Source: Planctomycetota bacterium (GTDB lineage Bacteria > Planctomycetota > Planctomycetia > Pirellulales > Pirellulaceae). From it: DNA of 32,055 nucleotides. Location: assembly GCA_963204995.1 (NCBI GenBank), contig CAUJKL010000395.1, positions 1 to 32,055 of the forward strand, given 5' to 3'. The notes under the pieces were generated by a model. It ran no database searches. It saw only the letters and a list, made by a program, of their open reading frames with translations, and was not told where the DNA came from. Numbering within the stretch: the first letter of the stretch is position 1; every line of letters begins with the position of its first letter. The translations under genes and the position numbers were made by a program. Shown one piece after another: positions 4,201-26,595 of the stretch.

Positions 4201-5072
4201 CCACCGAGGCGCGACGTCGTCAAGCCGCCGCGGGCCGCGCGACGGCTCGGACGATCGAGTTGGGCGCTGGTGTTACGATGCAGCTCACTTTGATTCCCGC
4301 CGGCCAGTTCGTGATGGGCAATCCGGCTGGCGCTAGTAATGAACCTCCCGCCACGCGCGTGCAAATTGAACGGCCCTTCTGGATGGCTGCTTTTGAAGTG
4401 ACGAACAAGCAATTCAATCAGTTCGCACCCGATCACGATAGCCGCGTCGAGTCGAAGAACACGTATCAATTCGGCATACATGGCTATCCGATGAATCTGC
4501 CGGACCAGCCGGTGGTGCGGGTTTCTTGGACCGAGGCTATGTCGTTCTGTAACTGGCTTTCGGAACAGACCGGCGAGAAGTTCTCGTTGCCATCCGAAGC
4601 CCAGTGGGAATATGCCTGCCGAGCCGGGACCGATACCGCGATGTACTATGGCGATGTAAATGCGGACTTCAGCAAATTTGCCAACATGGCAGACGCCAAG
4701 TTGTCGGAATTCGCCAGCGACCCTTACACCGTCGACACGCCGCTCGCGAACCCGCCGAAGTACGACGATTGGATCCCGAAAGACGCGCGATTCAACGACG
4801 GTGCTTTGCTGACGGTTGCTCCTGGCGCGTATCAGCCGAACGCTTGGGGATTGTTTGACATGCACGGTAACGCCAGCGAATGGACGCGTTCGATCGCGCG
4901 ATCTGCCGACGGTCAGGACGACGCAGCGTTGGCTAGAAGAATTGTTCGTGGTGGCTCGTGGCGCGACCGGCCCGAGCGTTGTACGTCCAGTTTCCGAATT
5001 GACTACCCGCCCTTTCAACGCGTGTATAACGTTGGCTTTCGAGTTGTTTGTGAAATGGCTGACGAGAAGTAA
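1278..5072 (+). CDS. Exported HzsA-related dihaem c-type cytochrome with C-terminal SUMF1 domain
   Basis: A 1264-aa exported protein. GGAGGA seven bases before the ATG fixes the start. The N-terminus is a Sec signal (hydrophobic run LGALTLSWLVAAS, then WAQ). Residues about 50-170 look like a carbohydrate-binding beta-sandwich. Residues about 340-610 form a PD40/WD40-like propeller (DGSGLRQLTG, NPDGTEQAEFYG). Two haem c motifs follow, CVGCH at 749-753 and CVGCH at 799-803. Residues about 1000-1260 are a SUMF1/FGE-sulfatase domain (IPAGQFVMG, WTEAMSFCNWLSE, RGGSW). The propeller plus two CxxCH order is that of the alpha subunit of anammox hydrazine synthase, and homologues in other planctomycetes are called HzsA-related. 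No HzsB or HzsC is present, so hydrazine synthesis is not implied. The SUMF1 domain has Asp where formylglycine-generating enzymes have the first of two copper-binding Cys, so FGE activity is doubtful. Confidence 0.85.
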   Translation: MLIVPTVRRGSCTPIPRSLNVLGALTLSWLVAASCLWAQTPDKATQSPASSANSFVIPAFAFDRGNAKTFTTSWADAEPMVAFGGESPIVIEYDIDFPATAEYALSINYAAADARPVQLFLDGKSVGMCCRTATGSWNTSGAKWESTTTLTITQGKHTLKLQREGAFPHVVSLKFESSAAFPEGWQLVRPAARTLDSPPPVPAYVRYTVDNVDTAALRRAIVDLMETFGSAYPRGGEYLKQLDGLESQAESSTNNSAEVSRAHTESLVALRRQALLIDNPLLDFDQLLLIKRAANAPSLGLPRNWESNSSLPHKGYDDEIAIHALAAADNDEDNELTTLFKPADGRFVGDLDLHFDAERMLFSMPADQGRWQVFEIGADGSGLRQLTGEQPDVDSYDACYLPSGKIIFTSTACFIGVPCVYGSSHVANLYVMDGDGQQIRQLCFDQEHDWCPTVMNDGRVMYTRWEYTDTPHSNTRLLFQMNPDGTEQAEFYGSNSYWPNSFFYTRPIPGHPTKVVSVIGGHHDNPRMGELVIFDPAKSRREADGAVQRIPGYGQKVESIIRDGLTNNSWPKFLHPYPLSEKHFLVSCKPTPQSLWGIYLVDTFDNMVLIKELPDHALLEPTPLRKTPAPPIIGEKVDLAKTDATIYISDIYAGDGLKGIPRGTVKSLRVFTYHFAYQNMGGLLGVIGMDGPWDIKRVIGTAPVHEDGSAKFLVPANTPISIQPLDEEGKAVQLMRSWTTAMPGEVVSCVGCHASRSAAPQARETLAQWRPTSTIKPWHGPTRGFSYAREVQPVIDKHCVGCHNGEPDSSGAQIPDLRGTEMIKDWSSITPGNGGAHAGKFSVGYAELHRFVRRPGIESDYHMLEPMEYHADTTELIQILKQGHHNVKLDAEAWDRLITWIDLNCPYHGTWGEELDDPGRQRDRRRELLKLYGGIDEDPEAVPVAVVSAIEPILPDPLPVVEATHVDCPNWPFDATEARRRQAAAGRATARTIELGAGVTMQLTLIPAGQFVMGNPAGASNEPPATRVQIERPFWMAAFEVTNKQFNQFAPDHDSRVESKNTYQFGIHGYPMNLPDQPVVRVSWTEAMSFCNWLSEQTGEKFSLPSEAQWEYACRAGTDTAMYYGDVNADFSKFANMADAKLSEFASDPYTVDTPLANPPKYDDWIPKDARFNDGALLTVAPGAYQPNAWGLFDMHGNASEWTRSIARSADGQDDAALARRIVRGGSWRDRPERCTSSFRIDYPPFQRVYNVGFRVVCEMADEK

Positions 5073-5264: not shown

Positions 5265-8200
5265 ATGATGAGCCGTTGTATGTTTCGTCGGACTTGCCCG
5301 TTGTTGCTTCTGCTCGCGGTTGCGGCCTGTGCGTCGCCTTGGATGTGGGCTGCGGAAGCCGTCGGTCCCCGCACCGAACCGGCGGCCGAGTACTCTCAAC
5401 TGACCAGCGAACGCATGCAACTGGCTCGTCGAACGTTGGCCTATGTGGAAGCGAGCGTTAAGCAGCCGGAACTGGCGGTGGAACTGGCGGCGTTGGAGCA
5501 GCGAGTCGAGACGGCGGCTTCAGCTTCGACCACCTTTCCAAAATCACTTTACGAGGAAGCATGTGACTTGCGGCGACGCATCATCCTCGCACATCCATTG
5601 TTGGATTTCGATCGGCTGCTGATCAACAAACGCCCGCCGCCCGGATTCAATCATCAATCCGATCAGTATCTCGGTCGTTACAGTGGTGTCGGCGATGGAC
5701 TGGTCGTGCTCGATTCGTGGAAACAACAGCCGCGCGAAACAGTGTTGCTCAAAGACCAACTGCCCGCCGGTTCGGTGTTGCATCCGGATCTTTCCTTCGA
5801 CGCCCAACGGATTCTGTTTTCTTACTGCGACCACACGCCAACCAATCCGACTCGCCGCCGCTTCTTTGTTTACGAAATTGGCGTCGACGGTAGCGGCCTG
5901 CGGCATGTGACCGGCACCGAGCTCGATTCGCTCGACGGTTCGCATGGCCGCGACACGGTATTGATCGAAGATTGGGACGCCTGCTATTTGCCGGATGGCG
6001 GATTCGCGTTTGTCAGCACGCGAAATCAGGGCGGCGTGCGCTGCCATTTCGGAGACCGTTACTGTCCGACGTATACGCTGTACCGTGGCGAGTTGGACGG
6101 CACGGGCATTCGGCCGATGGCTTATGGCGAAGCCAACGAGTGGGACCCCAGCGTGATGCACGACGGCAGCATCATCTGGACTCGTTGGGACTACATCAAT
6201 CGACACGACACGTTGTTCCAAAGCCTGTGGACCACACGCCCCGATGGCACGTCGCCGGAACATTTCTATGGCAACTACACCCGCAATCCGTGCAGCATTG
6301 CCGAGGCACGGGCCATCCCCGGTTCGCGCAAAGTTGTGGCGACCGCGACAGCTCATCACAGCTATACCGCTGGTTCGATCATCGTGATCGATCCCTACCG
6401 AGGGCACGACGGGCAGGAACCGATCACGCGGATTACGCCCGAGACGGCTTTCCCGGAAACGGAAGGTTGGGCCGACAGCGCCTACGCCACACCTTGGCCG
6501 CTCAGCGAAGATCTTTTTCTGGTCGCTTACTCCGCGGCTCCTCACACGAGTCAGGGCAAGCGACATGCCGCGAACGACTATGCCATCTATTTGATCGATA
6601 CGCTCGGCGGTCGCGAGCTGGTCTATCGCGACGAGTCGATGTCGTGCTTTTGCCCGATCCCGATCCAGCCGCGTGTGACGCCGCCGACCTTGCCGTCATT
6701 GCGTGCCCAGGACTCGGCGTCGGAAGACGCCACCGGCGTCTTCTACGTCCAAAACGTTTATGAAAGCGACGCCGAGATCGAGCCGGGCAGTGTAAAGAGT
6801 TTGCGCGTCGTGCGTGTTGATTCGCAAACGACACAAGCCGTTCCACCTCGGAGCACGGTGCTGTTCGAGACGGCCAAGAAGATTCTCGGTACGGTGCCCG
6901 TCGCGGAGGACGGCTCGGTCGCCTTTCGCGTGCCGGCCGGCGAATCGCTGTTGTTCCAATTGCTGGACAAGAACGGCATGGCCGTCATGGGCATGCGTTC
7001 GTTCACCTACGTGCATGCGGGCGAAACCGTCAGTTGTGTGGGCTGCCATGCCCCGCGTAATACATCTCCGGTGAGCAATCGCAGATTCAACAACGTCACG
7101 GTCCATGAGCTGCAACCGCCGGTCGGACCGCAATACGATGGCGGACTCAGTTTCGCACGGACCGTGCAACCGGTACTGGATCGCCATTGCATTCGCTGCC
7201 ACGGACTGGAGCAGACCGCTGGGGACGTGAACTTGCTGGGGACCATCGAGAATCGTCCCGCCAACGTGAAGGATCTGCTGGCCAGTACGGCGTACAACTC
7301 GCTCGTGTCGCGCAAGGGGCTCGTCGCGATGGCGTTGCGGAACCAGGAAGCCGATGCCAGTACCGCCAAGGACTATTTTTCTCATGCTGGTCGGTTGGCC
7401 AAGATGCTACTGGAGGGCGACGAGCATCACGACAAGCTCGATCCCGAAAGCTTGCAGCGAATCGTGGATTGGCTCGACTTGAACGCCCAATTCTTTGGCG
7501 ACTATTCCTGGAATAAGGTTGAATGGCGGCGCGCGGACCCCGAGGGCGAACGGGCGCTGCGCGAACACATCCGCGACCAATTCGGCGCGGAGTTGGCCGA
7601 GCAATCATACGCCAGCCTCGTGAATGTGGGACTGCCCGCGGAGAGCCGGATTCTCAAAATGCCGTTAGCCACGGCTGCTGGTGGTTGGGGGCAGATCTCG
7701 CGTCATGGCTGGCAGAGCACGAACGACCCCGGTTACGAAAGAATGCGGCAATTGGTCGAGCAATCGATCCAGCCGCTGGCGACTCACGATGTCGACGGAA
7801 CCTGCGGTCAGCAGCCTTGCGTTTGTGGTTCGTGTTGGGTACGCCTGGCCCCAGAGCCGAGCGGGCCTCTCATCAGCGTTGATGCCGCGCAGGCGATCGG
7901 CACGCCGATTCCTGCCGAACGGTATACCGTGGTGCGAGTCGATAGCGAGAATATCGGTAACTACGACGGTCGTGCGGTGAATGCCTTCGATGGCAATCCG
8001 GCGACCATGTGGCACACACAGTTCTCTGGAGCGAATCCCTCGCATCCGCACGAACTGGTCATCGATCTAGGAGCCGAATGTAGCGTCGCGGGTTTCCGTT
8101 ATCTGCCGCGGGGCGGAAACGGAGACATTGACAGCTGCGAGTTCTATGTGAGTAACGATCCGCAGCAATTTGGAAAACCTCAAGCCAAAGGCTCCTTACA

Positions 8201-8384
8201 GCCGCACGGTTCAGAGCAAGCGGTCAACATTCGTCCCACGCGGGGGCGTTACGTTCTGCTCCGCGCCTTGTCCGAGGCGCAAGGCCAACCTTGGACTTCG
8301 ATTCCTGAGCTGCGAATCCTCAGCCAGGAAGAACGACCGGACGACAATTCCCCAGTGGAAGGTAAAGCAAGACAACAACCATGA
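5265..8384 (+). CDS. Exported HzsA-related dihaem c-type cytochrome with C-terminal discoidin-like domain
   Basis: A 1039-aa paralogue of the preceding large gene. GAGGAG lies just upstream of the first of two adjacent ATGs. The N-terminus is a strong export signal (PLLLLLAVAAC); VAAC could be a lipobox, so the protein may be membrane-anchored. A helical segment is followed by NPLLDFD..L.KR-like HPLLDFDRLLINKR, then a propeller at about 170-430 (GVDGSGLRHVTG, DGSIIWTRWDY). Haem c motifs are CVGCH at 591-595 and CIRCH at 642-646. The spacing between the two haem motifs (51 residues) is close to that in both paralogues. A cysteine cluster, C847-x4-C852-x-C854-x2-C857, precedes a C-terminal F5/8-type-C-like domain (FDGNPATMWHT, HELVIDLG, RYVLLRALSE). 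Such domains usually bind glycans or surfaces. The substrate is unknown. The stop overlaps the start of the next gene. Confidence 0.85.
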   Translation: MMSRCMFRRTCPLLLLLAVAACASPWMWAAEAVGPRTEPAAEYSQLTSERMQLARRTLAYVEASVKQPELAVELAALEQRVETAASASTTFPKSLYEEACDLRRRIILAHPLLDFDRLLINKRPPPGFNHQSDQYLGRYSGVGDGLVVLDSWKQQPRETVLLKDQLPAGSVLHPDLSFDAQRILFSYCDHTPTNPTRRRFFVYEIGVDGSGLRHVTGTELDSLDGSHGRDTVLIEDWDACYLPDGGFAFVSTRNQGGVRCHFGDRYCPTYTLYRGELDGTGIRPMAYGEANEWDPSVMHDGSIIWTRWDYINRHDTLFQSLWTTRPDGTSPEHFYGNYTRNPCSIAEARAIPGSRKVVATATAHHSYTAGSIIVIDPYRGHDGQEPITRITPETAFPETEGWADSAYATPWPLSEDLFLVAYSAAPHTSQGKRHAANDYAIYLIDTLGGRELVYRDESMSCFCPIPIQPRVTPPTLPSLRAQDSASEDATGVFYVQNVYESDAEIEPGSVKSLRVVRVDSQTTQAVPPRSTVLFETAKKILGTVPVAEDGSVAFRVPAGESLLFQLLDKNGMAVMGMRSFTYVHAGETVSCVGCHAPRNTSPVSNRRFNNVTVHELQPPVGPQYDGGLSFARTVQPVLDRHCIRCHGLEQTAGDVNLLGTIENRPANVKDLLASTAYNSLVSRKGLVAMALRNQEADASTAKDYFSHAGRLAKMLLEGDEHHDKLDPESLQRIVDWLDLNAQFFGDYSWNKVEWRRADPEGERALREHIRDQFGAELAEQSYASLVNVGLPAESRILKMPLATAAGGWGQISRHGWQSTNDPGYERMRQLVEQSIQPLATHDVDGTCGQQPCVCGSCWVRLAPEPSGPLISVDAAQAIGTPIPAERYTVVRVDSENIGNYDGRAVNAFDGNPATMWHTQFSGANPSHPHELVIDLGAECSVAGFRYLPRGGNGDIDSCEFYVSNDPQQFGKPQAKGSLQPHGSEQAVNIRPTRGRYVLLRALSEAQGQPWTSIPELRILSQEERPDDNSPVEGKARQQP

Positions 8385-9381: not shown

Positions 9382-9602
9382 GATTTCACTCGGTTGAAGA
9401 GGTGACTGGCGGAAAAAGGCGGGAGCAACTCGCTGGTTCCAACCGGGCGAATCATGCCTGGCGGCGGCGGGATGGTTGCTTGACGTAATTTCAAACAGTA
9501 TAAGCAAAGGTTAGTTTCGTGTATATTGGTGAGAGCCTGAGAAACTGCGGCGATGACGCTGCCGGTTGGTGGAGCGATAATACCCTGCGAGGAGACGCCA
9601 CA

Positions 9603-11552
9603 ATGATACGAACCGCACGACGCATGATGTTACGAGTGAGTGTATTTGCAGCAATGGCCGGCGTCTTGCTGGTGCCACGGTATGAGGCGTTGGGACAGGA
9701 CACTCCCGCCTCAAAAGTGTCTGCTTCGACAGACTACCGCTCGCCATTCGGCGTGGTCACTTCCCCGGATGGAAAAACCGTCTATGCCACCGATCAAACC
9801 GGTGGACGCCTATCGATTCTCGACGCCGCAAAGAGGACTGCCCGCGGCGAGATCGCTTTACGTGGCCGCCCGCAGGGGCTGGCGTTATCGAAAGACGGGA
9901 GCACGCTGTACGTCGCCGAGCACGGAGCAAGTAGTGTGGCCGTCATCGATACGAACAAGCAGGCGATCACTTCGCGCATCACGGTTGGATTGTGGCCAAC
10001 CGCCGTAGCCATCGCCGATAAGTCAAAGCGGCTGTACGTCGGTAATCAGGACCGCGATTCCATTTCCGTCGTCGACCTGAGCCAGAACCCGGCGAAGGTG
10101 ATCAAGGAGGTGGCTGTGGTCCGCGAGCCAAGTTGCGTCGCCGTCACACCGGACGAGAAGCACATCGTCGTTACCAATCTGATGGCTCTGGGACGCGGCA
10201 CGGATCCAACCTTGTCGGCTGAGGTGAGCATTATCAGCACAGACACTTTGGCACCGGCGACGGGCGTGAAACTGCCTCCCGGATCAACGATGGTCCCGGG
10301 TGTGTGTGTCAGTCCGAATGGAAAGTGGGCTTATGTGGTACATGGGCTGGGCAGGTTCAACCTGCCGATCACACAACTCGAACGCGGCTGGGTGAACACG
10401 TTTGGGTTAAGCATCATCGACATTGCTAACGGTTCGCGGCTGGCCACGATGCTGCTCGATGATTTGACGCAAGGAGCTGCGGACCCGCACAGTGTCGTTT
10501 GTTCTCAGGACGGCACGCGCCTTTGGATCACTCATACCGGCGTGCATGAAGTCTCTTCCATCGACATTGGCTTGGTCCACGGACTGCTCGAAGGTAAAGT
10601 GCCCGAGGAATTGGCGTCACTCAAGGACGGATCGCAAGCCAACATCTGGGTGCAGGTACAGCAGAACCGGGACAGGATTGCGGACCTCGAAAATGATCTG
10701 ACCGCGCTATACATTGCCGGAGCGATTCGCCGCTTCCGCTCGGGTGGGACCGGGCCGCGCGGATTGGCCCTTTCTCCCGATGGGCAAAACCTGTTTGTGG
10801 CCAACTATTTCTCGGGTTCCGTCGCGGTGCTGGACGCTTCGACGGGCAGCTTGCAAGGCAACATCTCGTTGGGGACGCAACCGGAACCCGACTCGGTGCG
10901 GCTCGGTGCGACGATCTTCCACGACGCGACGCATGCCTTTCAGCGGTGGCACAGTTGTGCCTCGTGTCACGCGAACGAAGGCCGCATTGACGGTCTGCGA
11001 TGGGATTTTCTGGGTGATGGAATCGGCAACCCCAAGGACACACTCAGCCTGCTCCACTTCGACAAGACCGAGCCGATGAACCGGCGGGCGACGATGCAGT
11101 CCGCGCGCGCTTGTGCGAAGAACGGCCTGGAATCGACGAACATGATCGTGCCGACCGAGAAAGATGTGGAAGACCTGTTTGCGTACCTGATTTCGTTGCG
11201 GCCCGTACCCAGCCCGCACCTCACGCCCGAGGGTAAGTTGACCGAGGCCGCCGAGCGCGGCAAGTCGTTGTTCGACGGCAAGGCGAGTTGTGTGCGCTGT
11301 CATCCCGCACCGTACTATACCGATAACAAGATGCACAACGTCGGAGTGCTCAGCCCCAACGAACCGGACGGTCGCTATGACACACCGTCGCTGTTGGAGT
11401 CCTACCGTACGGCCCCGTACTTGCACGATGGTCGTGCGCTGACGCTGAAGGATGTTCTGACGGAAAACAACTCGGAGAAAAAACACGGTGCCGCGGACTC
11501 GCTCAACGAGCAAGAGATCGACGACCTGGTCGCTTACCTACTTTCCTTGTAG
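9603..11552 (+). CDS. Exported YncE-like beta-propeller fused to dihaem cytochrome c domain
   Basis: A 649-aa exported protein. The start at MIRTARRMM is chosen because it follows GAGGAGACGCC and gives a Sec signal (VSVFAAMAGVLLVP); an upstream in-frame ATG at 9519 would bury the signal. Residues about 40-420 form a YVTN/YncE-type propeller with repeated VVTSPDGKTVYATDQ and LALSKDGSTLYVAEHG units. The C-terminal third carries CASCH at 452-456 and CVRCH at 563-567, plus a YDTPSLLESYRTAPYLHDGRA segment typical of dihaem cytochrome c peroxidase/MauG-like proteins. The likely role is periplasmic electron transfer or peroxidase/oxidase chemistry, with the propeller as scaffold or docking site. The stop is 44 bp before the next HzsA-related gene, so the two are probably co-transcribed. 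Which haem is catalytic cannot be told from sequence. Confidence 0.85.
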   Translation: MIRTARRMMLRVSVFAAMAGVLLVPRYEALGQDTPASKVSASTDYRSPFGVVTSPDGKTVYATDQTGGRLSILDAAKRTARGEIALRGRPQGLALSKDGSTLYVAEHGASSVAVIDTNKQAITSRITVGLWPTAVAIADKSKRLYVGNQDRDSISVVDLSQNPAKVIKEVAVVREPSCVAVTPDEKHIVVTNLMALGRGTDPTLSAEVSIISTDTLAPATGVKLPPGSTMVPGVCVSPNGKWAYVVHGLGRFNLPITQLERGWVNTFGLSIIDIANGSRLATMLLDDLTQGAADPHSVVCSQDGTRLWITHTGVHEVSSIDIGLVHGLLEGKVPEELASLKDGSQANIWVQVQQNRDRIADLENDLTALYIAGAIRRFRSGGTGPRGLALSPDGQNLFVANYFSGSVAVLDASTGSLQGNISLGTQPEPDSVRLGATIFHDATHAFQRWHSCASCHANEGRIDGLRWDFLGDGIGNPKDTLSLLHFDKTEPMNRRATMQSARACAKNGLESTNMIVPTEKDVEDLFAYLISLRPVPSPHLTPEGKLTEAAERGKSLFDGKASCVRCHPAPYYTDNKMHNVGVLSPNEPDGRYDTPSLLESYRTAPYLHDGRALTLKDVLTENNSEKKHGAADSLNEQEIDDLVAYLLSL

Positions 11553-11596
11553 CAACGCTTGCGGCGTGAAGTATCAACGTAAAGGAGTTCGATGTC

Positions 11597-14038
11597 ATGA
11601 CAAAGCGCATCCCGTCTCGATGTAGGAAGTTGCTGGGCGTCTCGCTGATGGGGATCGTCTTGGCGGTGGCACTTCAGCCCGCACGAGCCGACGACGTCGC
11701 ACGGCATACGCCCGGCGAGTTGCTCTCTTCCATGCTTCAAGGGCCGTTAGATGGCGTCGAGGAAATCGTGTTCGCCACGCGCGTCTCGGGGCGCGATCAC
11801 TGGTATGTCAGCTTCGGATATTACAGCTGCGACTACGGCGAAGGCGCTGAAAAGAGCTTCGGCAAGTATCCCGACGGCGAGACCTTGCGGGGCTACGGAG
11901 ACGGCGGACGGTTGTGCCGATTGAATCTTCGCACGGGTGAATTGAAGCTGCTGATCGATGATCCGCAAGGTGGCGTGCGCGATCCTCAAATGCATTACGA
12001 CGGCAAGAAGATTCTGTTCTCGTATCGTCGCGGAGGGACGGCGACCTACCATCTGTATGAGATCAACGTCGACGGGAGTGGTTTGCTTCAATTGACCGAC
12101 GGTCCGGATGACGACATCGAACCGACGTACTTGCCGGACGGCGGGATCATGTTCGGCTCGAGCCGCTGCCAACGCTTCGTCAATTGCTGGTTCAGCCGCG
12201 TGGCCACGCTGTATCGCTGCGATGGCGACGGTGGCAACATCCGGATGGTTTCGAGCAATAACGACCACGACAACACACCTTGGGTGCTGCCGGACGGTCG
12301 CGTGTTGTATATGCGGTGGGAGTATGTCGATCGCAGCCAGGTTCACTTCCACCATCTGTGGACCGTGAATCCGGATGGCACAAGCCAAATGACCTGGTAC
12401 GGAAATGAGTTTGCTGGCACCGCCATGCTGGATGCCAAGCCGATTCCCGGCACCAATAAGGTCGTGGCGTCGTTTTCACCCGGTCACGGTCGCCCCGAGC
12501 ACATGGGACACGTCACGGTGGTTGATCCGAGTGCCGGGCCGGACGTCTTGCCGGTCACCAAGCAGATCAGCCAGGGCAACCAGATGTTTCGCGATCCGTA
12601 CGCGATCAACGAGAACTGCTTCTTGGCAGCCGATCCCAAAGGCATCTTCGTCATGGATGGCGACGGCAACAAGGAGTTGGTGTATGCGCTGCCAGAGGCG
12701 TTGCGGCACATGGAGTGTCACGAACCTCGTCCGCTCCAGGCGCGGCCGCGCGAGCCAGTGATTGGCTCCCAGACCGACCTTTCCAAAGAGACCGGCGAGT
12801 TGGTGCTGGCTGACATCTATAACGGCCGCAACATGGAGGGCATCGAACGCGGTGAAATCAAGAAGCTGTTGGTGCTCGAACAGTTGCCCGAGCCGGTACA
12901 TTTCTCTGGAGGCATGGAACCGTTGAGCATTGGCGGCACGTTCACCATGTCGCGGGTGTTGGGAACCGTTCCGGTCGAACCCGACGGTTCGGCCTACATG
13001 GAGTTGCCCGCACTGCGATCGTTGTTCCTGGTTGCGTTGGACAAGGACGATTTGTCCGTCAAGCGGATGCAAAGCTTCGTCACCATTCAACCGGGCGAGC
13101 GGACAAGTTGCGTTGGCTGTCACGAGCAGCGATCGCGCACCGCTCCGGTCGGCGCGGGGTTGATGGCGTTGAACCACTTGCCTCATCGAGTGACGCCGAT
13201 CGATGATGTGCCCTCGGTGCTGGACTTTCCCCGCGACATTCAGCCGATTTTGAACAAGCACTGTGTCGCGTGTCACAACCCAGATCGCCGCGATGCCGGC
13301 GTGGACCTCAGCGGCGATCACACGCCCAAGTATACGAACAGCTACTGGACCATCGTCCGACGCGGTCTGGTAGCCGATGGACGCAATCAACCTTATTCCA
13401 ACCGGGCTGCTCGCACGATTGGCAGCTCGGCCAGCCGACTCATGCAACTGACCAACGGCAGCCATCAGGGTGCCAAGCTCAGCGAACTGGAACGAAAAAC
13501 GATCCGGCTGTGGATCGACACGAGCGCCACGTATCCGGGAACTTATGCCGCGCTCGGTTGCGGCATGTATCCCGCTCCGTTGCCCTACGACATGCTGGCG
13601 AATCGGTGCGGCAAGTGTCACGACGGCCAAAGCCGAGACGGACGAGTGGCGAGCAAGTTCGACTTCAGCTCGCTGCAGTCGAAGTGTAATCTTTCGCGGC
13701 CCGAGAAGTCTGACCTGCTTCGTGCGCCGTTGTCCAAGGAAGCTGGCGGCCTGGCGATTTGTGGCAACGAGGTCTTCAAGAATACGAACGATCCGGGCTA
13801 TCAAGCAATTCTCTCGGCGATCCGCACTTCCGCCAATCAACTAGCCACGGAAAAACGTTTCGATATGCCTGGGTTCCGGCCCAATAAGCATTACATTCGC
13901 GAGATGAAGCGGTTTGGTATCCTGCCTGCGGACTTGGGAACGGATGATCCGATCGACGTGTACGAGACCGACGAGCGGTATTGGCGATCGTTCTGGTACA
14001 CTGGTCAATTCAGCGAGAGCCTTCGACCCAGCGAGTAG
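11597..14038 (+). CDS. Exported HzsA-related cytochrome with three CxxCH motifs
   Basis: An 813-aa protein, close to the length of anammox HzsA and the simplest of the three paralogues here. AAAGGAG lies upstream of the ATG; the signal peptide is LMGIVLAVALQPARA. A propeller spans about 125-370 (NVDGSGLLQLTDGPDDDIEPTYLPDGGIMFGSSRC, then TPWVLPDGRVLYMRWEY). Haem motifs are CVGCH at 505-509, CVACH at 556-560, and a third, CGKCH at 671-675, absent from the other two paralogues. A Cys pair in the propeller loop (RCQRFVNCW) is also present in varied form in the other two. It is followed after six bases by the radical SAM gene. By analogy it is a periplasmic multihaem redox protein. Its reaction is unknown; without HzsB/HzsC partners it should not be called hydrazine synthase. 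Confidence 0.87.
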   Translation: MTKRIPSRCRKLLGVSLMGIVLAVALQPARADDVARHTPGELLSSMLQGPLDGVEEIVFATRVSGRDHWYVSFGYYSCDYGEGAEKSFGKYPDGETLRGYGDGGRLCRLNLRTGELKLLIDDPQGGVRDPQMHYDGKKILFSYRRGGTATYHLYEINVDGSGLLQLTDGPDDDIEPTYLPDGGIMFGSSRCQRFVNCWFSRVATLYRCDGDGGNIRMVSSNNDHDNTPWVLPDGRVLYMRWEYVDRSQVHFHHLWTVNPDGTSQMTWYGNEFAGTAMLDAKPIPGTNKVVASFSPGHGRPEHMGHVTVVDPSAGPDVLPVTKQISQGNQMFRDPYAINENCFLAADPKGIFVMDGDGNKELVYALPEALRHMECHEPRPLQARPREPVIGSQTDLSKETGELVLADIYNGRNMEGIERGEIKKLLVLEQLPEPVHFSGGMEPLSIGGTFTMSRVLGTVPVEPDGSAYMELPALRSLFLVALDKDDLSVKRMQSFVTIQPGERTSCVGCHEQRSRTAPVGAGLMALNHLPHRVTPIDDVPSVLDFPRDIQPILNKHCVACHNPDRRDAGVDLSGDHTPKYTNSYWTIVRRGLVADGRNQPYSNRAARTIGSSASRLMQLTNGSHQGAKLSELERKTIRLWIDTSATYPGTYAALGCGMYPAPLPYDMLANRCGKCHDGQSRDGRVASKFDFSSLQSKCNLSRPEKSDLLRAPLSKEAGGLAICGNEVFKNTNDPGYQAILSAIRTSANQLATEKRFDMPGFRPNKHYIREMKRFGILPADLGTDDPIDVYETDERYWRSFWYTGQFSESLRPSE

Positions 14039-14044
14039 TCCGCT

Positions 14045-15388
14045 ATGAAGATTGTTAACGACCAGCCCGAGTCGGCGGCGGTTTGCGAACCCCAGGAGCC
14101 GACCGAAGGAAATCTGTTCGTCTCGGCCTATCCGCCGTTTTCCTGCTGGAAACCGGAGTTTGTGCCCGGCATCGATCAGGCCCTGCGGACGGTCTCCGCG
14201 AACCAACAAGATGTTCCGTTGGGGTTGTACGTTCACATTCCGTTTTGTCTCCAGCGTTGTGAGTTCTGCTACTACCGCTCCTTCGCCGATCCGGCTGCCG
14301 ATACGATCGATTCGTACCTGAATGCGTTGATCAACGAGATCCGGATTTACGGTGAATTGCCTCGGATAGCCGGGCGGCCTTTGGCGTTCGCCTACTTCGG
14401 AGGCGGCACGCCGTCCATTCTCTCGGCTGGACAACTGCAACGATTGTTTCAGGGCATTCAATCGACATTTCCATCGACGGACATCCAGGAGGTAACGTTC
14501 GAGTGCTCGCCCAAGACGGCGACTCGCGAGCGATTGGAGAAACTGCGTCAAGTCGGCGTGACGCGGATCAGCATGGGCATCCAGCAACTGAACGACGACG
14601 TGCTTCGTCAGAGCGGTCGCGTGCATCTGGTCGAGGACGTCAAGCGAGCGTATGCCGAGATCCGACGTTGCGATTTCGATGTGGTCAACGTCGACCTGAT
14701 GGTGGGCTTGGTGGGCGAGACAGAGGAATCGTTTCAGAACAGTCTGGACGAAGTGATCGCGATGACTCCCGACAGCATCACGTTCTATCAGCTGGAAATA
14801 CCGGCCAACACACCGCTGTTTCGTGCGCTGCACAATAACGAAGTCGCCGCGCCTGTGGGTTGGGACGTCAAGCGAGTACGCTTGGCCGATGCGTTTACTA
14901 CGCTTGAGACGAACGGTTATACATTACGCAGCGCCTATGCTGCCGTGCGAGATCCAGCACGGCATCGGTTTCTGTATCAAGAGCTACAGTATCGTGGTGC
15001 CGATTTGGTTGGAACGGGCTTGGCTTCATTTTCCTATGCGGCGGGGACCCACTATCAGAACGTCGGGTCGCTGCGAGAATACCACGAGCGTCTGGCGGCG
15101 AATCGTCTGCCTTACAACCGTGGTTATGTACTGAGCCCCGCGGACCAGGCCGTTCGCGAGTTCGTTCTTCAATTGAAACTGGGCAAAGTCGAAGCCAGCT
15201 ACTTCACGGACAAGTTCGGCATTAGCATCGGCGAGCAGTTCGCCGCACCGCTGCAACGGTTTTCCGAAGCGGGTTGGCTGGCAGTCGATGAGTCAATTGT
15301 CACGCTCACTCGCCAGGGCTTACTGCGTGTCGATCGCATGTTGCCTGAGTTCTACTTGCCCCAACACCAGGATGTAAGCTATTGGTAA
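14045..15388 (+). CDS. HemN/HemW-like radical SAM enzyme
   Basis: A 447-aa cytoplasmic protein without signal peptide. The radical SAM cluster motif is C68-x3-C72-x2-C75 (PFCLQRCEFCYY), followed by YFGGGTPSIL, the SAM-binding GGTPS element of the coproporphyrinogen oxidase-like family, ECSPKTAT, and GVTRISMGIQQLND. The C-terminus has the HemN-type winged region (LGKVEASYFTDKFG). The family includes HemN (anaerobic coproporphyrinogen oxidase), HemW (haem chaperone), ChuW/HutW (haem ring opening) and class C methyltransferases, and sequence alone does not decide between them. No good Shine-Dalgarno is visible and the gap after the HzsA-related stop is six bases, so translation is probably coupled. 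Its position between a multihaem protein and a flavoenzyme suggests haem-related work or tailoring of a small molecule. Confidence 0.85.
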   Translation: MKIVNDQPESAAVCEPQEPTEGNLFVSAYPPFSCWKPEFVPGIDQALRTVSANQQDVPLGLYVHIPFCLQRCEFCYYRSFADPAADTIDSYLNALINEIRIYGELPRIAGRPLAFAYFGGGTPSILSAGQLQRLFQGIQSTFPSTDIQEVTFECSPKTATRERLEKLRQVGVTRISMGIQQLNDDVLRQSGRVHLVEDVKRAYAEIRRCDFDVVNVDLMVGLVGETEESFQNSLDEVIAMTPDSITFYQLEIPANTPLFRALHNNEVAAPVGWDVKRVRLADAFTTLETNGYTLRSAYAAVRDPARHRFLYQELQYRGADLVGTGLASFSYAAGTHYQNVGSLREYHERLAANRLPYNRGYVLSPADQAVREFVLQLKLGKVEASYFTDKFGISIGEQFAAPLQRFSEAGWLAVDESIVTLTRQGLLRVDRMLPEFYLPQHQDVSYW

Positions 15389-15408
15389 GAATCGATGGAC
15401 AGATAAGT

Positions 15409-15478
15409 GTCGTAGGACGGGTCTCCTGGCCCGTCATGCGACGGACGGGCCGGGAGACCCGTCCTGCCTTGCAACGAC
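15409..15478. repeat. Long near-perfect hairpin repeat
   Basis: Two 22-nt arms, 15414-15435 (AGGACGGGTCTCC...) and 15444-15465 (...GGAGACCCGTCCT), pair with one T/G wobble around an 8-nt loop. After a short bulge the outer GTCGT/ACGAC bases also pair. It sits between the radical SAM and flavoprotein genes. There is no T-tract, so it is not a standard Rho-independent terminator. It may stabilise or separate transcript ends, or belong to a dispersed palindromic repeat family. The element is unrelated in sequence to the repeats at 5073 and 20285. Confidence 0.75.
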
Positions 15479-15539
15479 TATTCTTCGACCGATCCTAACG
15501 TCGCGCCGCGAACAGGAAACACAACGAGGAGATTGAACG

Positions 15540-16787
15540 ATGATCCAACAACCAAATCGCCCGACATCTTATGACGTGATTGTGATCGGTGGCGGGCCGG
15601 CCGGTACGGCACTGGCAACGTTCGTGCAACGACAAGGCCACTCTTGTCTGGTGCTGAACGATTCGACGTTTCCGCGTTACCACATTGGCGAATCGCTGAT
15701 TCCGCATACCTACGGCACGCTCGACCGGCTTGGCTTGCTACCGAAGCTGCGGGAGTCACATTTTCCGGTCAAGCACAGCGTTCGTTTCGTCTCGCCATCG
15801 GGGGCAGCTGCCGATCCGTTCTATTTCTCGGAAACGATCGAAGGCGATCGCGCGCGAACGTGGCAAGTCAAACGCTCCGAGTTCGACCAGATGTGTTTGG
15901 ATAATGCGTTGCAGGCTGGCGTTGAAGTCCGCATGGGCACCAGCGTTCACGAAGTGATGTTCGAAAACGGACAGGCTGTCGGCGTGATGGCACATCAAGG
16001 TGCCGAGCCTCCCTCCGCGATCCGCTCGAAGGTCGTAGTCGATGCATCGGGTCGGTCGACGATCATCGGCAAGCAGCTTGGGTTACGCGAGGAGATTCCG
16101 AACCTGCAGAAGTCCTCGATCTGGTCGTACTATCGCGGAGGCCAAAGGTTGGCGGGAATCGATGCTGGTGAAACGACCGTGTTCACGATTCAGGACCGCG
16201 GTTGGTTCTGGTACATTCCGCTGCCGGACGATATCGTCAGCGTCGGGATCGTCGCCGCACCCGAGTACTTGTTTGACGAATCGAGCGACTTCGAGAAGAT
16301 CTATCAGCGTGAAGTCGAGCGTTGCGGTCCGCTGTCGGAGCGATTGCAAAACGCCGAGCAGGTAGACATCGTCCGCGGCATCCGCAAGCTCGCGTATCTC
16401 AATCGTCAAGTGGCCGGTGACGGCTGGATCATGATTGGGGACGCGGCTGGATTTCTAGATCCGATCTACTCGTCGGGGCTGTTTCTGGCATTGGCGTCGG
16501 CCGAATTAGCGGCGAACTGTGTGCATGAGGCACTCGAAAAGGACGATCTGTCGGCTGGCCAATTGGGTGCGTTCACCGGTGCGTTGTGGGACGGCGTGGA
16601 CGTGGTCTGGCGGCTGATCAAGGCTTACTACGATCCCACGTTCAGCTTCCGCGCCTTCGCGGAAAGACATCCCGAACACCGCGCGGCGTTGATCGATTGT
16701 CTGATCGGCGACGTCGTTGGAAAGGATTTGACTCCCTTCCTCGATGCCTTGGCGAAAATGACCCCGCCACCGGCCCGACTGAAGTAG
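15540..16787 (+). CDS. FAD-dependent oxidoreductase with flavin-halogenase fingerprints
   Basis: A 415-aa cytoplasmic flavoprotein; GAGGAG precedes the ATG. The N-terminal Rossmann motif is VIGGGPAGTALA (residues 16-26), followed by the GESLIP segment (50-55) and a late FAD-binding GDAAGFLDPIYSSG. Two marks of flavin-dependent halogenases are present: WFWYIP at 222-227 matches WxWxIP, and Lys78 (FPVKHSVRF) falls where the catalytic lysine of tryptophan and phenolic halogenases lies (Lys79 in PrnA). Related monooxygenases and geranylgeranyl-reductase-like enzymes share the FAD motifs, so halogenation is likely but not proven, and no substrate-binding module is recognisable. It lies downstream of the radical SAM gene, 151 bp away with a hairpin between, so co-transcription is plausible. 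The last codons and stop are duplicated 150 bp downstream. Confidence 0.8.
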   Translation: MIQQPNRPTSYDVIVIGGGPAGTALATFVQRQGHSCLVLNDSTFPRYHIGESLIPHTYGTLDRLGLLPKLRESHFPVKHSVRFVSPSGAAADPFYFSETIEGDRARTWQVKRSEFDQMCLDNALQAGVEVRMGTSVHEVMFENGQAVGVMAHQGAEPPSAIRSKVVVDASGRSTIIGKQLGLREEIPNLQKSSIWSYYRGGQRLAGIDAGETTVFTIQDRGWFWYIPLPDDIVSVGIVAAPEYLFDESSDFEKIYQREVERCGPLSERLQNAEQVDIVRGIRKLAYLNRQVAGDGWIMIGDAAGFLDPIYSSGLFLALASAELAANCVHEALEKDDLSAGQLGAFTGALWDGVDVVWRLIKAYYDPTFSFRAFAERHPEHRAALIDCLIGDVVGKDLTPFLDALAKMTPPPARLK

Positions 16788-16947
16788 CTCGGCTGCGTTA
16801 GGATCGCCCAGGAAGTAACTTCATGGAACGAGGTGGCTGGGGCTGAGTCCGCGAAGCCCCGGCTTACCATGAACTCCAATCAGCCGTGGCGTCGAAGACT
16901 CCGCCACAGCCACCGGCCACCGGCCCGACTGAAGTAGCTCGGCTGCG
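16766..16947. repeat. 32-bp direct repeat flanking a hairpin-rich insertion
   Basis: The 32 bases at 16766-16797, which encode the last residues and stop of the flavoprotein, recur without change at 16916-16947, exactly 150 bp downstream. The segment between holds two short hairpins: GGGGCT/AGCCCC (about 16839-16860) and GTGGCG/CGCCAC (about 16886-16907). This looks like insertion of a palindromic repeat unit with duplication of flanking sequence, or a slippage event. The second copy ends four bases before the stop of the convergent Rrf2 gene. Confidence 0.7.
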
Positions 16948-16950
16948 CAC

Positions 16951-17415
16951 TTAGGTCTTGGCTTTCGTCTTCTGTGGAGTCGCTCTGATGTCTTTGGCAA
17001 GTTCATCAAGCGTGAGTCCCGCCAGCGATGCCAAGAAAGCCTCTTCCAGCTTGGACATCTTCCGCCGAATCGAACAGTTACTCACGATGGGACACTCGTC
17101 GTCGAGTGACAAGCTGCAACGATCCGTCTCGATCCCTTCCAGCAATTCAACGAGATCGCGTACCGAGATCTTGTCCGCAGGTCGACCGAGAGAGTAACCG
17201 CCGGCGATGCCGCGATGACTACGCAGCAGTCTTCCACGGGCCATCCGCTGGACGACATTGGACAAATAAGTATCCGACGAACTGGGCCAAATCGTCGTCA
17301 TCCAGGCGGCTAATTCGGGGAGCGTCGTCAACTCGCCTGCCGGTTTTGTTGCGATATACGCCATGGCATGGAGACCATAGCTAAAACGTTGTGAAAAGAA
17401 CTGGCCACTTGCCAC
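16951..17415 (-). CDS. Rrf2-family transcriptional regulator (IscR/NsrR-like)
   Basis: A 154-aa protein with the Rrf2 winged-helix N-terminus (SYGLHAMAYIATKP, then a recognition region ending LLRSHRGIAGGYSLGRP) and DLVELLEGIE leading into three cysteines, C100-x7-C108-x5-C114. IscR and NsrR hold an Fe-S cluster through three cysteines in this region, usually with x5-x5 spacing, so the protein probably senses Fe-S status, nitric oxide or redox state. The start is GTG, with AAAGG about eight bases upstream. An internal ATG (MAYIATK) would remove part of the first helix. An IscR-like palindrome and a tandem short palindrome lie upstream, consistent with autoregulation. It converges on the flavoprotein gene and precedes no gene in its own direction within the operon. 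Confidence 0.88.
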   Translation of the reverse strand: MASGQFFSQRFSYGLHAMAYIATKPAGELTTLPELAAWMTTIWPSSSDTYLSNVVQRMARGRLLRSHRGIAGGYSLGRPADKISVRDLVELLEGIETDRCSLSLDDECPIVSNCSIRRKMSKLEEAFLASLAGLTLDELAKDIRATPQKTKAKT

Positions 17416-17569: not shown

Positions 17570-18580
17570 TCATAGACGCGAGTTGGCATATTCGATCATT
17601 GCTCGGACGTTTTCCAGGGGTGTATCACGCGGAATTTCACAGCCCGCGCCGACGATGTAGCGCTCACCCGCCTGGCGATGACACTGGGCAAAGGCTGCGG
17701 TCACCGCCTCGGCCTCGGCATTGCGCAGATCCCGGACGGGGTCGACGTTGCCCAGCAAAATCTGCTGCGGCCCCATGGCCTGACGAGCGGCTGCGACCGA
17801 TGTGAAATAATCCAAGTCGACAATCTCGCACCCCAAACTCCCCATGCCGTTGACGATCGAGGTCGCGTTGCCGCAGATGTGCAGCCGCACGGCAGCGCCC
17901 ATGGCGTGGATGCCGTCGACCAGCTTCTTCTCATAAGGCCAGACAAACTCGTCGTAGAACTTGGGCCCGATCAACGACGCGGCGGCATCGCCGATGCCAA
18001 TGATATCCGCCCCCGCGTTCACTTGGGCTTGTGCGTAAAGCAGCGCCAATTCCGTCACGAAGTCGAACAATCTGAGGACAAACGCGGGATCGTCATAGAA
18101 ATCGAACATCAACGTGTTGATGCCCCGCAGATCCGCGGCCTCGGCACAAGGGCCTTCGACCCAACCCATGACGGCCTTCTCGTTGCCCACGCGGTCTTTC
18201 ATCAGACTCAAGGCGTTGACGGCCGCATGCATTCTGCCGTCGCCCAACGGATTGGGCATCTGCAAGCCGGCGAGCTGCGCTTTGTCCGCCAACAGCGCGT
18301 CGCTCTCGACGATCGCCGCCGGCTGATCTTCGAAGAATTCGATACGCGCACCGCAGTCGAACGCTTCCCGAGCTGGATCGGACATGTTGGAAACGATGTC
18401 GAAACCGAATCGATCCGCCGTCTGAATCTGAGCCTCGGCTAGAACTCGATAATCATTCACGTACTCGCCGTACTTAACGCCAATCTGATCGGCGCAAAAC
18501 ATCATCACGACCGGCATGAGCGGCAGTCGGTCAACCGCATCGCCCTTCAAGAACGCCAGAACTCGCTCGCGACCATTCAT
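17570..18580 (-). CDS. Uroporphyrinogen-decarboxylase-superfamily (MtaA/CmuA-type) methyltransferase
   Basis: A 336-aa cytoplasmic TIM-barrel protein starting at MNGRERVLAFLKG, the usual opening of the family. The longer frame to 18868 adds 96 residues of unlike sequence and is rejected. Key elements are GWVEGPCAEAADLRG, DIIGIGDAAASLIGPKFYDEFVWPY, H234-x-C236 (LHICGN), LLGNVDP and C314 (GAGCEIPRDTP). The His-x-Cys and distant Cys form the zinc site of MtaA/MtbA/CmuA-type methylcobamide methyltransferases; true uroporphyrinogen decarboxylases lack it. It therefore probably moves a methyl group to or from a corrinoid, with zinc activating a thiol. No corrinoid protein is encoded nearby. It shares its strand with the Rrf2 gene downstream (154 bp gap) and diverges from the oxidoreductase at 18910. 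Confidence 0.82.
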   Translation of the reverse strand: MNGRERVLAFLKGDAVDRLPLMPVVMMFCADQIGVKYGEYVNDYRVLAEAQIQTADRFGFDIVSNMSDPAREAFDCGARIEFFEDQPAAIVESDALLADKAQLAGLQMPNPLGDGRMHAAVNALSLMKDRVGNEKAVMGWVEGPCAEAADLRGINTLMFDFYDDPAFVLRLFDFVTELALLYAQAQVNAGADIIGIGDAAASLIGPKFYDEFVWPYEKKLVDGIHAMGAAVRLHICGNATSIVNGMGSLGCEIVDLDYFTSVAAARQAMGPQQILLGNVDPVRDLRNAEAEAVTAAFAQCHRQAGERYIVGAGCEIPRDTPLENVRAMIEYANSRL

Positions 18581-18909
18581 CTCATCAACCGTGGTGGAGA
18601 AGGGAAAGATTGTTTTTAACGCACCCCAACTATAGCAAAAGGCGAGCGCGTTGGTGTAGTATATTAGCCAGCAACGACGGAATGTACTCTGCTCCAACCT
18701 GAACCACCGGTCGTGAACTGGTCTCGCCGAGAATTCGCGTTCCCCATGCAAAGCTCCTGCGTCCATCTTCGTCAACCGAATTATTTCGTCAGCCGTAGTG
18801 TCGCAATTCTGCCGAGCAGCGGGACGGATGGCTCCGCTATTAAGACCTTGCAGCTTATAGAACAGCAACTCGTAGATTCTCTGAACTCTAAGAAATGAGG
18901 AGTGATTTC
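18581..18909. other. Divergent intergenic region
   Basis: This 329-bp gap separates the minus-strand methyltransferase from the plus-strand oxidoreductase and must hold both promoters. TATACT (minus strand, near 18657-18662) and TATAGT (minus strand, near 18630) are possible -10 hexamers without good -35 partners. On the plus strand TTGCAG (18848) is a weak -35 candidate. I see no gene, strong hairpin or repeat. Confidence 0.4.
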
Positions 18910-20511: not shown

Positions 20512-22101
20512 ATGAAGTCGATTTTCTTCCTCGCTGTGAGTTGCTTGGCCGTCCTTATCTCGTCGTTTGGAACACCGCGAAGCTTTGCCGAACAACTGAC
20601 AATCGACTTATCGGCGGACGGAGCAGCGGAGCGTTGGTTGTTCTTGGACTCGACTGCAGCCATCCGTGACGGCGAGTTGATCTTGGACGGTCGGCAAGCG
20701 ATGTCGCGAGCCTTCTTTCAACCGGTCCAATGGGACGACGTCACGTTGCGCGCCAAGTTCCTCGTCGAGCCTGCCGAGCGCGGAGTCCTCGCCTGTGGAT
20801 TCATCGTGCGTGCCGCCGATACCGACACGTACTACTACGTTCATTTCGACCGTACGCAGGCGATCCTTGTCCGCTCTGATTCAGGCGTGTCGTGGAACGA
20901 ACTCAAACGCATCGGTGGGTTGAAGAAACCGGCGGGCGAATGGCACGAAGGCGAACTGCAAGCTGTGGGCGATACGTTGAAGATCTCGTTGAATGGGAAG
21001 CTGTTGTTCGAAGCGACCGACCCGACGTTGCAGGGTGGGCGAATCGGCTTCTATGCGAATCAGGGTCGTGCCCACGTCAAGGACATCGTTGTGACGGGCG
21101 TTGGTCACAAGACCACCGAGGAATTGAAAGTCCCGCCGAAACAGTACGTCCACGTCTGCACGGACGCGGGGGCCGGGGCCTACGAAGCTTTTCCCGATGT
21201 CTGTCGGCTGAGCGATGATCGGCTGATGGCGGTCTTCTATGCCGGGTATGGTCATGTCTCGTTGCCCAACGAGCAATTGCCCCAGGGTGGTCGCGTCAGC
21301 TACTGCACGTCCGACGACGAAGGCCACACTTGGAGCGAAGCCAAAGTGCTGTACGACGGACCCGACGACGATCGCGATCCGTCGATCGTGCAGTTATCCA
21401 ACGGTCGGCTGATTTGCAATTTCTTCTCCTTGCGCAAGGCCGACCAGCCGGGCAAACGTTGGACGGGACTGGGGACTTGGATGGTTGCCTCCGACGACTT
21501 GGGCCGGACTTGGTCCGCGCCGCAGCAGATCGCCAAGGACGCCTATTGCAGCTCCCCGATCCGTGAATTATCCGATGGCCGTCTGATTCTAGGTCTGTAT
21601 CGCGAAGCCAACGCCTCGGCTCACGGCGCGGTCGTTATCAGCGACGACGGAGGCCAGACTTGGGGCGACGTGATCGACATCGACAACGGAGGAACTCGGC
21701 TCGACGCGGAAACCGACATCATCGAGCGGAAGGACGGCACGCTGTATGCCGCTCAACGTCCCGCCATGTATTTTTCCGTCTCGAAAGATCGCGGCCGGAC
21801 ATGGAGTGTCTCGAAACCGATGGGCTTTGCGGGTCACTGCCCGTATTTCTTGCGGACGCGAGACGACATCATCTTGCTGGCACACCGCGTTCCATCGACG
21901 AGCCTGCACTACAGCCTGGACGAGTGCGAGACCTGGAGCGACAACGTCTTGGTCGACACAGTTGGAGGCGCGTATCCTTCGATGGTGAACCTCAAGGACG
22001 GAACCGTGCTGATCGTCTACTATGAAGAAGGCGGTGGTTCGAGTATTCGTGCCAAACGCCTGCGAGCAACACGGTCGGGCATCGAATGGCTTGCGCCGTG
22101 A
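20512..22101 (+). CDS. Exported two-domain Asp-box (sialidase-like) protein
   Basis: A 529-aa protein with a Sec signal (IFFLAVSCLAVLISSFG). Residues about 30-200 form a concanavalin-like beta-sandwich similar to DUF1080/3-keto-glycoside hydrolase-type modules (ERWLFLDSTAAIRDGELILDG, GGRIGFYANQGRAHVKDI). The rest is a six-bladed sialidase-fold propeller with five Asp boxes: SDDEGHTW, SDDLGRTW, SDDGGQTW, SKDRGRTW and a degenerate SLDECETW. The N-terminal Arg-Ile-Pro motif of true sialidases is replaced by AFPDV, so sialic acid hydrolysis should not be assumed. Planctomycete genomes hold many such proteins of unknown substrate. It is the first of several exported hydrolase-like genes on the same strand. 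The upstream gap carries the MITE-like element. Confidence 0.8.
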   Translation: MKSIFFLAVSCLAVLISSFGTPRSFAEQLTIDLSADGAAERWLFLDSTAAIRDGELILDGRQAMSRAFFQPVQWDDVTLRAKFLVEPAERGVLACGFIVRAADTDTYYYVHFDRTQAILVRSDSGVSWNELKRIGGLKKPAGEWHEGELQAVGDTLKISLNGKLLFEATDPTLQGGRIGFYANQGRAHVKDIVVTGVGHKTTEELKVPPKQYVHVCTDAGAGAYEAFPDVCRLSDDRLMAVFYAGYGHVSLPNEQLPQGGRVSYCTSDDEGHTWSEAKVLYDGPDDDRDPSIVQLSNGRLICNFFSLRKADQPGKRWTGLGTWMVASDDLGRTWSAPQQIAKDAYCSSPIRELSDGRLILGLYREANASAHGAVVISDDGGQTWGDVIDIDNGGTRLDAETDIIERKDGTLYAAQRPAMYFSVSKDRGRTWSVSKPMGFAGHCPYFLRTRDDIILLAHRVPSTSLHYSLDECETWSDNVLVDTVGGAYPSMVNLKDGTVLIVYYEEGGGSSIRAKRLRATRSGIEWLAP

Positions 22102-22193
22102 GATGCCGAGGACGATCGGTTTCATCCGCTCGCCACGCCTGGATGTCCCCGCTTTACGATCCCGCATGAAACATGCTCTCAATGGACACAACG

Positions 22194-23552: not shown

Positions 23553-23606
23553 TTCACCTCTGCGACAAGGGCCACATACATCGTCCGACAGTCGAAGGAA
23601 ATCAGC

Positions 23607-25058: not shown

Positions 25059-25152
25059 TCCACATCCTGAGTCGGCTCGTGTACCACTTCGGTATGGAAG
25101 TTTTCGGCTAGAGCCGCAATTCACAACAGGAGAATGAGAAAGGAAAGTCGTT

Positions 25153-26463: not shown

Positions 26464-26595
26464 CCATGAAGTTCAGACGCGACCATCGCCTCTCGGAGCA
26501 ATTAGACTGCATACGATCGCTGCCGACCTCACCCGATCTCGCCGCGAATCGATCGACCGTATTCACCCTTCCTCACCACCACCAGGAGCGCAACG

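Follow-up and report, generated by a model that had tools for sequence, protein, structure and literature searches.

The window (the whole stretch of DNA analysed here, 32,055 nucleotides) lies on contig C395 of a 9.7-Mb planctomycete metagenome-assembled genome (MAG). Four forward-strand genes, separated by gaps of 44, 6 and 151 bp, face a convergent fifth gene on the reverse strand. The five genes, their coordinates, the gaps and the sequence motifs given in the initial annotation were all confirmed. The features considered below are, by position:

1278 to 5072, + strand: HzsA paralogue with CBM6 and FGE-sulfatase domains (Pfam)
5265 to 8384, + strand: HzsA paralogue with an F5/8 type C domain (Pfam)
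9513 to 9529, + strand: conserved upstream block AGTTTCGTGTATATTGG, candidate promoter region of the HzsBC-like gene
9603 to 11552, + strand: gene 1, HzsBC-like fused protein of 649 aa; beta-like seven-bladed propeller and gamma-like dihaem domain, signal peptide-like N-terminus
11597 to 14038, + strand: gene 2, HzsA-like protein of 813 aa; PF18582 at 69 bits, three CxxCH motifs, signal peptide-like N-terminus
14045 to 15388, + strand: gene 3, HemN-family radical SAM protein, rare window-type paralogue; Radical_SAM and HemN_C domains
15412 to 15467, no strand: REP-like palindrome with a 24-bp stem, between the radical SAM and flavoprotein genes
15540 to 16787, + strand: gene 4, flavin-dependent halogenase/monooxygenase-family protein, rare window-type paralogue; Trp_halogenase at 92 bits
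16951 to 17415, − strand: gene 5, Rrf2-family regulator, convergent, with C-x7-C-x5-C; PF02082 at E 6e-27

The Pfam and NCBIfam assignments were Lactonase/YncE propeller plus Cytochrom_C/CCP_MauG for gene 1, HZS_alpha for gene 2, Radical_SAM plus HemN_C for gene 3, Trp_halogenase/CmlS-like for gene 4 and Rrf2 for gene 5. Two CxxCH haem motifs are found in gene 1 and three in gene 2 (at 505, 556 and 671). A scan of genome contigs yielded 38 named loci, from Pirellulaceae, Thermoguttaceae, Phycisphaerae and a few Verrucomicrobia and Kiritimatiellia records. The AGTTTCGTGTATATTGG block occurs once in the window, and similar blocks precede HzsBC in L158, L182, L151, L152, L153 and L159; it is probably the promoter region of the HzsBC-like gene. 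Since the block overlaps the longer GTG start at 9519, the start at 9603 was favoured for gene 1.

The 151-bp gap between genes 3 and 4 contains the palindrome, which has a fold z of −7.0. Its exact half-site was present in 41 copies on approximately 30 contigs of the same genome, in three copies in one genome of the same genus, and in none of four others. A dedicated terminator or riboswitch was rejected, as the hairpin is a dispersed genomic palindrome, and the repeat accounts for the gap. It also ties the contig to the source genome: contamination of the MAG (bin contamination 7%) is disfavoured, because the same repeat is found on about 30 other contigs.

Hydrazine synthase (HZS) is the defining enzyme of anammox, and its origin was long considered to be de novo. 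Gene 1 had been described as a YncE-propeller/dihaem protein, and the propeller and two CxxCH motifs are indeed there, but its identity had been misread: the full-length match to HZS beta and gamma makes it a fused HzsBC. Residues 41–343 matched HZS beta (5c2v_B) with an E value of 2e-38 and residues 430–648 matched HZS gamma (5c2v_C) with 3e-22, while the AlphaFold model, made from 13 sequences, had 5c2v_B as its top PDB match (TM 0.87 on target). Gene 2 matched HZS alpha (5c2v_A) by sequence (E 9e-16), and its low-confidence model, used as support only, also had 5c2v_A as its top PDB fold match. With beta and gamma matched by gene 1 and alpha by gene 2, the window holds a complete, diverged relative of hydrazine synthase in a non-anammox planctomycete, with the three folds encoded together (that of alpha on a low-confidence model). 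The two proteins have five c-type haem sites, compared with four in HZS. None of the curated NCBIfam cut-offs was reached (bits/cut-off: alpha, 76.5/800; beta, 155.3/560; gamma, 85.7/625; beta-gamma fusion NF052342, 186.4/1250), and gene 2 scored 67 bits with the alpha-family HMM, where full-length anammox proteins score >1600.

HzsBC adjoins HzsA in the window and in L151, L154, L157, L158, L161, L181 and L182; in L155, HzsBC is followed by a more diverged HzsA (50%). Among 147 relatives, the two genes co-occurred in 9 of 12 holders (p = 7e-10). The closest relative, L158, matches the window at 84% for HzsBC and 89% for HzsA. Orthologues of the Rrf2 regulator (60–82%) are convergent with HzsBC or with the HzsBC–HzsA pair in five other loci (L151, L152, L153, L157 and L159), which makes it a real partner of the HZS-like genes. 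The C-x7-C-x5-C pattern was invariant across seven Rrf2 orthologues, and a 66% copy lies near the flavoprotein gene in L194. None of the cut-offs for the NsrR, RirA or IscR subtypes was reached. The upstream regions of HzsBC and Rrf2 shared short blocks in up to 7 sequences, against 4–6 in simple shuffles, and this was too weak for an operator to be proposed. Beyond the regulator, at 17570–18868, is an MtaA/CmuA-type URO-D family gene with relatives (72–83%) in HzsBC loci L151, L152 and L159.

The radical SAM protein has its CxxxCxxC motif at residue 68. It scored below the NCBIfam cut-offs for HemW (180/205 bits), HemN (190/325) and HutW (198/400) and also below that for STM4012, so that the deflationary interpretation of a plain HemW plus a reductase was rejected. 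The flavoprotein has WxWxIP at 222 and a conserved catalytic Lys78, and matches the PDB halogenases 8zop and 5dbj; it fell below the CmlS, QhpG and LodB cut-offs. Because both motifs are also present in the canonical planctomycete copies, they are not diagnostic of a halogenase and do not prove halogenation. The two families are widespread, occurring in 129 (radical SAM) and 128 (flavoprotein) of the 147 relatives, with a single canonical copy each at ≈40% identity. In phylogenetic trees, the window radical SAM protein fell in a clade of its own (support 0.999), as did the flavoprotein (a clade of nine, support 1.0).

The canonical copies share one conserved cluster (L197–L204), containing genes for an aldehyde dehydrogenase, an Fe-ADH, a GcvH-like carrier, the radical SAM protein, a ferredoxin-like protein, squalene-hopene-cyclase-like and polyprenyl synthetase/DUF116 proteins and the flavoprotein. 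Radical SAM and flavoprotein are thus an established pair, and this is apparently an uncharacterised, conserved planctomycete cluster of isoprenoid type. (The name chorismate lyase for its 201-aa gene was discarded, being based on a lone match below cut-off in one member only.) The initial annotation counted a modified haem among the possible products of the pair; no evidence for halogenation or modified haem was found, and the canonical pair points instead to isoprenoid-type chemistry.

Among 397 genomes drawn evenly across the class, the window-type radical SAM gene was present in three genomes (G000, G005 and G097), the window-type flavoprotein gene in five (the same three, G340 and G427) and a close HzsBC in six. 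When the window genome was left out, both remaining holders of the rare radical SAM gene (2/2) also held HzsBC (p = 1.3e-4; 396 non-independent genomes), and both (2/2) held the rare flavoprotein gene (p = 8e-5; 396 genomes, with tiny numbers and non-independent genomes). Two loci show physical linkage. In G024, the order is HzsBC–HzsA–flavoprotein, with the flavoprotein gene directly after HzsA. In G097, the order is HzsA–HzsBC–Rrf2–sulfite reductase–radical SAM, the gene between the HZS-like and radical SAM genes encoding a sulfite-reductase-type sirohaem protein (PRK13504 above cut-off; L072:8537-10264). The association of the rare pair with HZS-like genes is therefore seen elsewhere, both as linkage and as co-occurrence. 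The idea of a fixed four-gene module did not hold up, as L158 has no radical SAM or flavoprotein gene after HzsA on a contig that ends 2.6 kb further on, and G005 has all the genes, but on separate contigs. G002 (same genus), G340 and G427 carry the rare flavoprotein gene and have neither HzsA nor a close HzsBC.

Active-site residues were compared by alignment with genuine anammox loci from the same phylum. In alpha, the column of the haem ligand Tyr591 was gapped in all 12 homologues, which also lacked the loop, some 22 residues long, that follows the haem motif of alpha-I. The column of the zinc ligand Cys303 did not contain Cys, and His772 varied among the 12. In gamma, Cys165 aligned with Cys504 of gene 1 and was conserved in 12 of 13 sequences, while His144 was replaced by an arginine (Arg494) that was invariant in all 13, and Asp168 by Asn507 in the window protein. 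The beta tunnel-loop motif LPxxxxExGxVxT was recognisable in gene 1. The likeness to HZS thus lies in the electron-entry half and does not extend to the hydrazine-forming half. An active hydrazine synthase was rejected on the deletion of Tyr591 and the loop, the replacement of the zinc ligand and of His144 and Asp168 in gamma, and the low family scores. A peroxidase of the MauG or bacterial cytochrome c peroxidase type was rejected as well, the catalytic-Trp position (that of gamma His144) being Arg494 in 13/13.

For bacteria other than anammox bacteria, genes for HZS-like alpha and fused beta-gamma proteins were reported in 2023, from Phycisphaerae (PMC10732223). In 2025, Hagglund et al. placed non-anammox HZS homologues in clades I–IV, rejected hydrazine synthesis from residues of clades I–III, and reported none for clade IV (PMC12758564). 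The 2025 paper also describes gamma Cys165 as the third haem-binding cysteine and gives Trp at gamma His144 for clades I–III. The initial annotation knew of no described pathway with this gene set; the HZS-like pair itself has been described (PMC10732223, PMC12758564). The available text of these two papers makes no mention of Rrf2, radical SAM or flavoprotein partners, and the terms "radical SAM" and "halogenase" are absent from that of PMC10732223.

Having lost key residues for hydrazine formation, the HZS-like pair probably carries out a related but different small-molecule chemistry. Drawing on the homology, residue states, gene order and co-occurrence described above, we tentatively favour a periplasmic, HZS-fold multihaem oxidoreductase that is regulated by the Rrf2 protein and has an optional cytoplasmic tailoring pair, a reading that is possible rather than secure. 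The HzsBC-like and HzsA-like proteins would form a periplasmic complex with five c-type haem sites, and the convergent Fe-S-type Rrf2 protein would regulate it. Electrons would arrive at the gamma-II-like haem and move on to the gamma-I-like one. The latter may retain a third cysteine bond, and it is there that a small molecule would be reduced, NO or another N-oxide being the likeliest. The product would then travel past the beta loop to the alpha-I-like haem; ordinary His ligation is probable for this haem, at which no hydrazine would be formed. The radical SAM protein and the flavoprotein would be a specialised pair derived from the conserved isoprenoid-type cluster, and in some lineages may modify a small molecule, perhaps quinone-like or prenyl-aromatic-like, for the HZS-like system. 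By analogy, NO or another small N-oxide is our first guess for the substrate, since the better conserved of the sites is gamma-I, which binds NO in genuine HZS (PMC12607021). An HZS-like reduction of NO cannot be taken for granted, because neither Asp168 nor His144 of gamma is conserved.

The strongest rival, possible if somewhat unlikely, assigns the HZS-like pair to a sulfated-polysaccharide locus, as an extracellular oxidoreductase unrelated to nitrogen. HzsA-like genes are strongly expanded in the source genome (about a dozen strong matches), and the two other HzsA paralogues in the window, with their CBM6, FGE-sulfatase and F5/8 type C domains, lie near genes for a sulfatase, sialidase-like BNR proteins, a ceramidase-like protein and a GFO/IDH/MocA dehydrogenase. 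However, neither gene 2 nor HzsBC has a glycan-binding domain, the other loci showed no conserved block of the window's sulfatase and BNR genes beside HzsBC, and an Fe-S-type Rrf2 regulator would be odd for a glycan system. Positions 20512–27771 of the window, with the sulfatase, the ceramidase-like gene and several BNR sialidase-like genes, are a possible sulfated-glycan locus.

The unified pathway of the initial annotation, in which the cytochromes use a small molecule, peptide or haem that the radical SAM protein and flavoprotein produce or alter, we regard as unlikely. It would explain the co-occurrence and the two independent cases of locus linkage, and in G427 the window-type flavoprotein gene lies directly downstream of one for a TIGR04053 radical SAM/SPASM protein (L195:7608-10187) related to the haem b synthase AhbD. 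It fits poorly with the closest relative, L158, which has neither gene after HzsA, with the isoprenoid-type rather than haem-type setting of the canonical pair, and with scores below every curated haem-enzyme cut-off. The HZS-like pair and the Rrf2 regulator could also be one unit, the radical SAM and flavoprotein genes having been inserted between them by chance. L151, with the order HzsBC–HzsA–Rrf2 and neither of the two genes, is consistent with this, as are L158 and the dispersed repeat between the two genes; but each gene is independently linked to HZS-like loci (G024, G097) and the genes co-occur, and we consider chance insertion quite unlikely.

A more far-reaching reading, and a very unlikely one, is that an HZS-fold, Cys-crosslinked multihaem complex performs a new small-nitrogen reaction, under Fe-S/NO-sensing control and with a special cofactor built by a dedicated radical SAM/flavoenzyme pair; one such reaction would be the reduction of NO coupled with the making of another N–N, N–O or N–C bond, and the cofactor might be quinone-like or other. 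Cryptic anammox, with a working hydrazine synthase in a planctomycete outside the Brocadiia, was proposed for related Phycisphaerae in PMC10732223 and could draw on the anammox gene order (beta-gamma upstream of alpha) and the retained gamma Cys165 and beta-loop motif, but is hardly credible given the alpha and gamma residue losses, the HMM score of gene 2, the single, partial multihaem-cytochrome match in the source genome (11 and 13 in two anammox controls) and the rejection of hydrazine synthesis by PMC12758564 for its own homologues.

A complete HZS relative that has kept the third haem-binding cysteine and lost the hydrazine-forming site offers a natural test of the ancestral enzyme's role. 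The locus adds two handles for which we found no report, the conserved Fe-S-type regulator and the rare radical SAM/flavoenzyme pair. Planctomycetes bacterium CA13 (L181) also has orthologues; as its record carries no metagenome-assembly label, experiments on a cultured strain may be feasible.

Among known systems, the flavoprotein resembles the CmlS/PltA-type FADH2-dependent halogenases and the QhpG/LodB-like maturases in its WxWxIP motif, conserved lysine and full-length similarity to solved halogenases, but these motifs recur in the widespread canonical planctomycete copies and its scores are below the CmlS, QhpG and LodB cut-offs. The radical SAM protein shares CxxxCxxC, the HemN_C domain and whole-length similarity with the HemN-family enzymes (HemN, HemW, HutW and NosN/NocN), but is below every curated cut-off shown and in a clade apart from the widespread planctomycete copy. 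MenK/MqnK are further HemN-family radical SAM enzymes. The regulator is like the Fe-S-sensing Rrf2 proteins NsrR, RirA and IscR in its Rrf2 domain and three conserved cysteines.

With hydrazine synthase (PDB 5C2V), the HZS-like pair shares the folds, by sequence and structure search, the two gamma haem sites, the alpha-I and alpha-II CxxCH motifs, the beta-loop motif and gamma Cys165; the beta-gamma fusion is shared with the Scalindua enzyme (PMC12758564). Unlike HZS, the alpha protein lacks Tyr591 and the following loop, does not conserve Cys303 and His772, and has a third haem motif; gamma His144 and Asp168 are not conserved, and the sequences are distant. Clades I–III of that paper have Trp at gamma His144, whereas arginine is invariant in the window group. 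With the described HZS-like genes of other bacteria the window group shares a fused beta-gamma beside alpha; compared by description only, it fits clade IV, with a taxon-variable gene order and no FG-GAP gene seen (PMC12758564).
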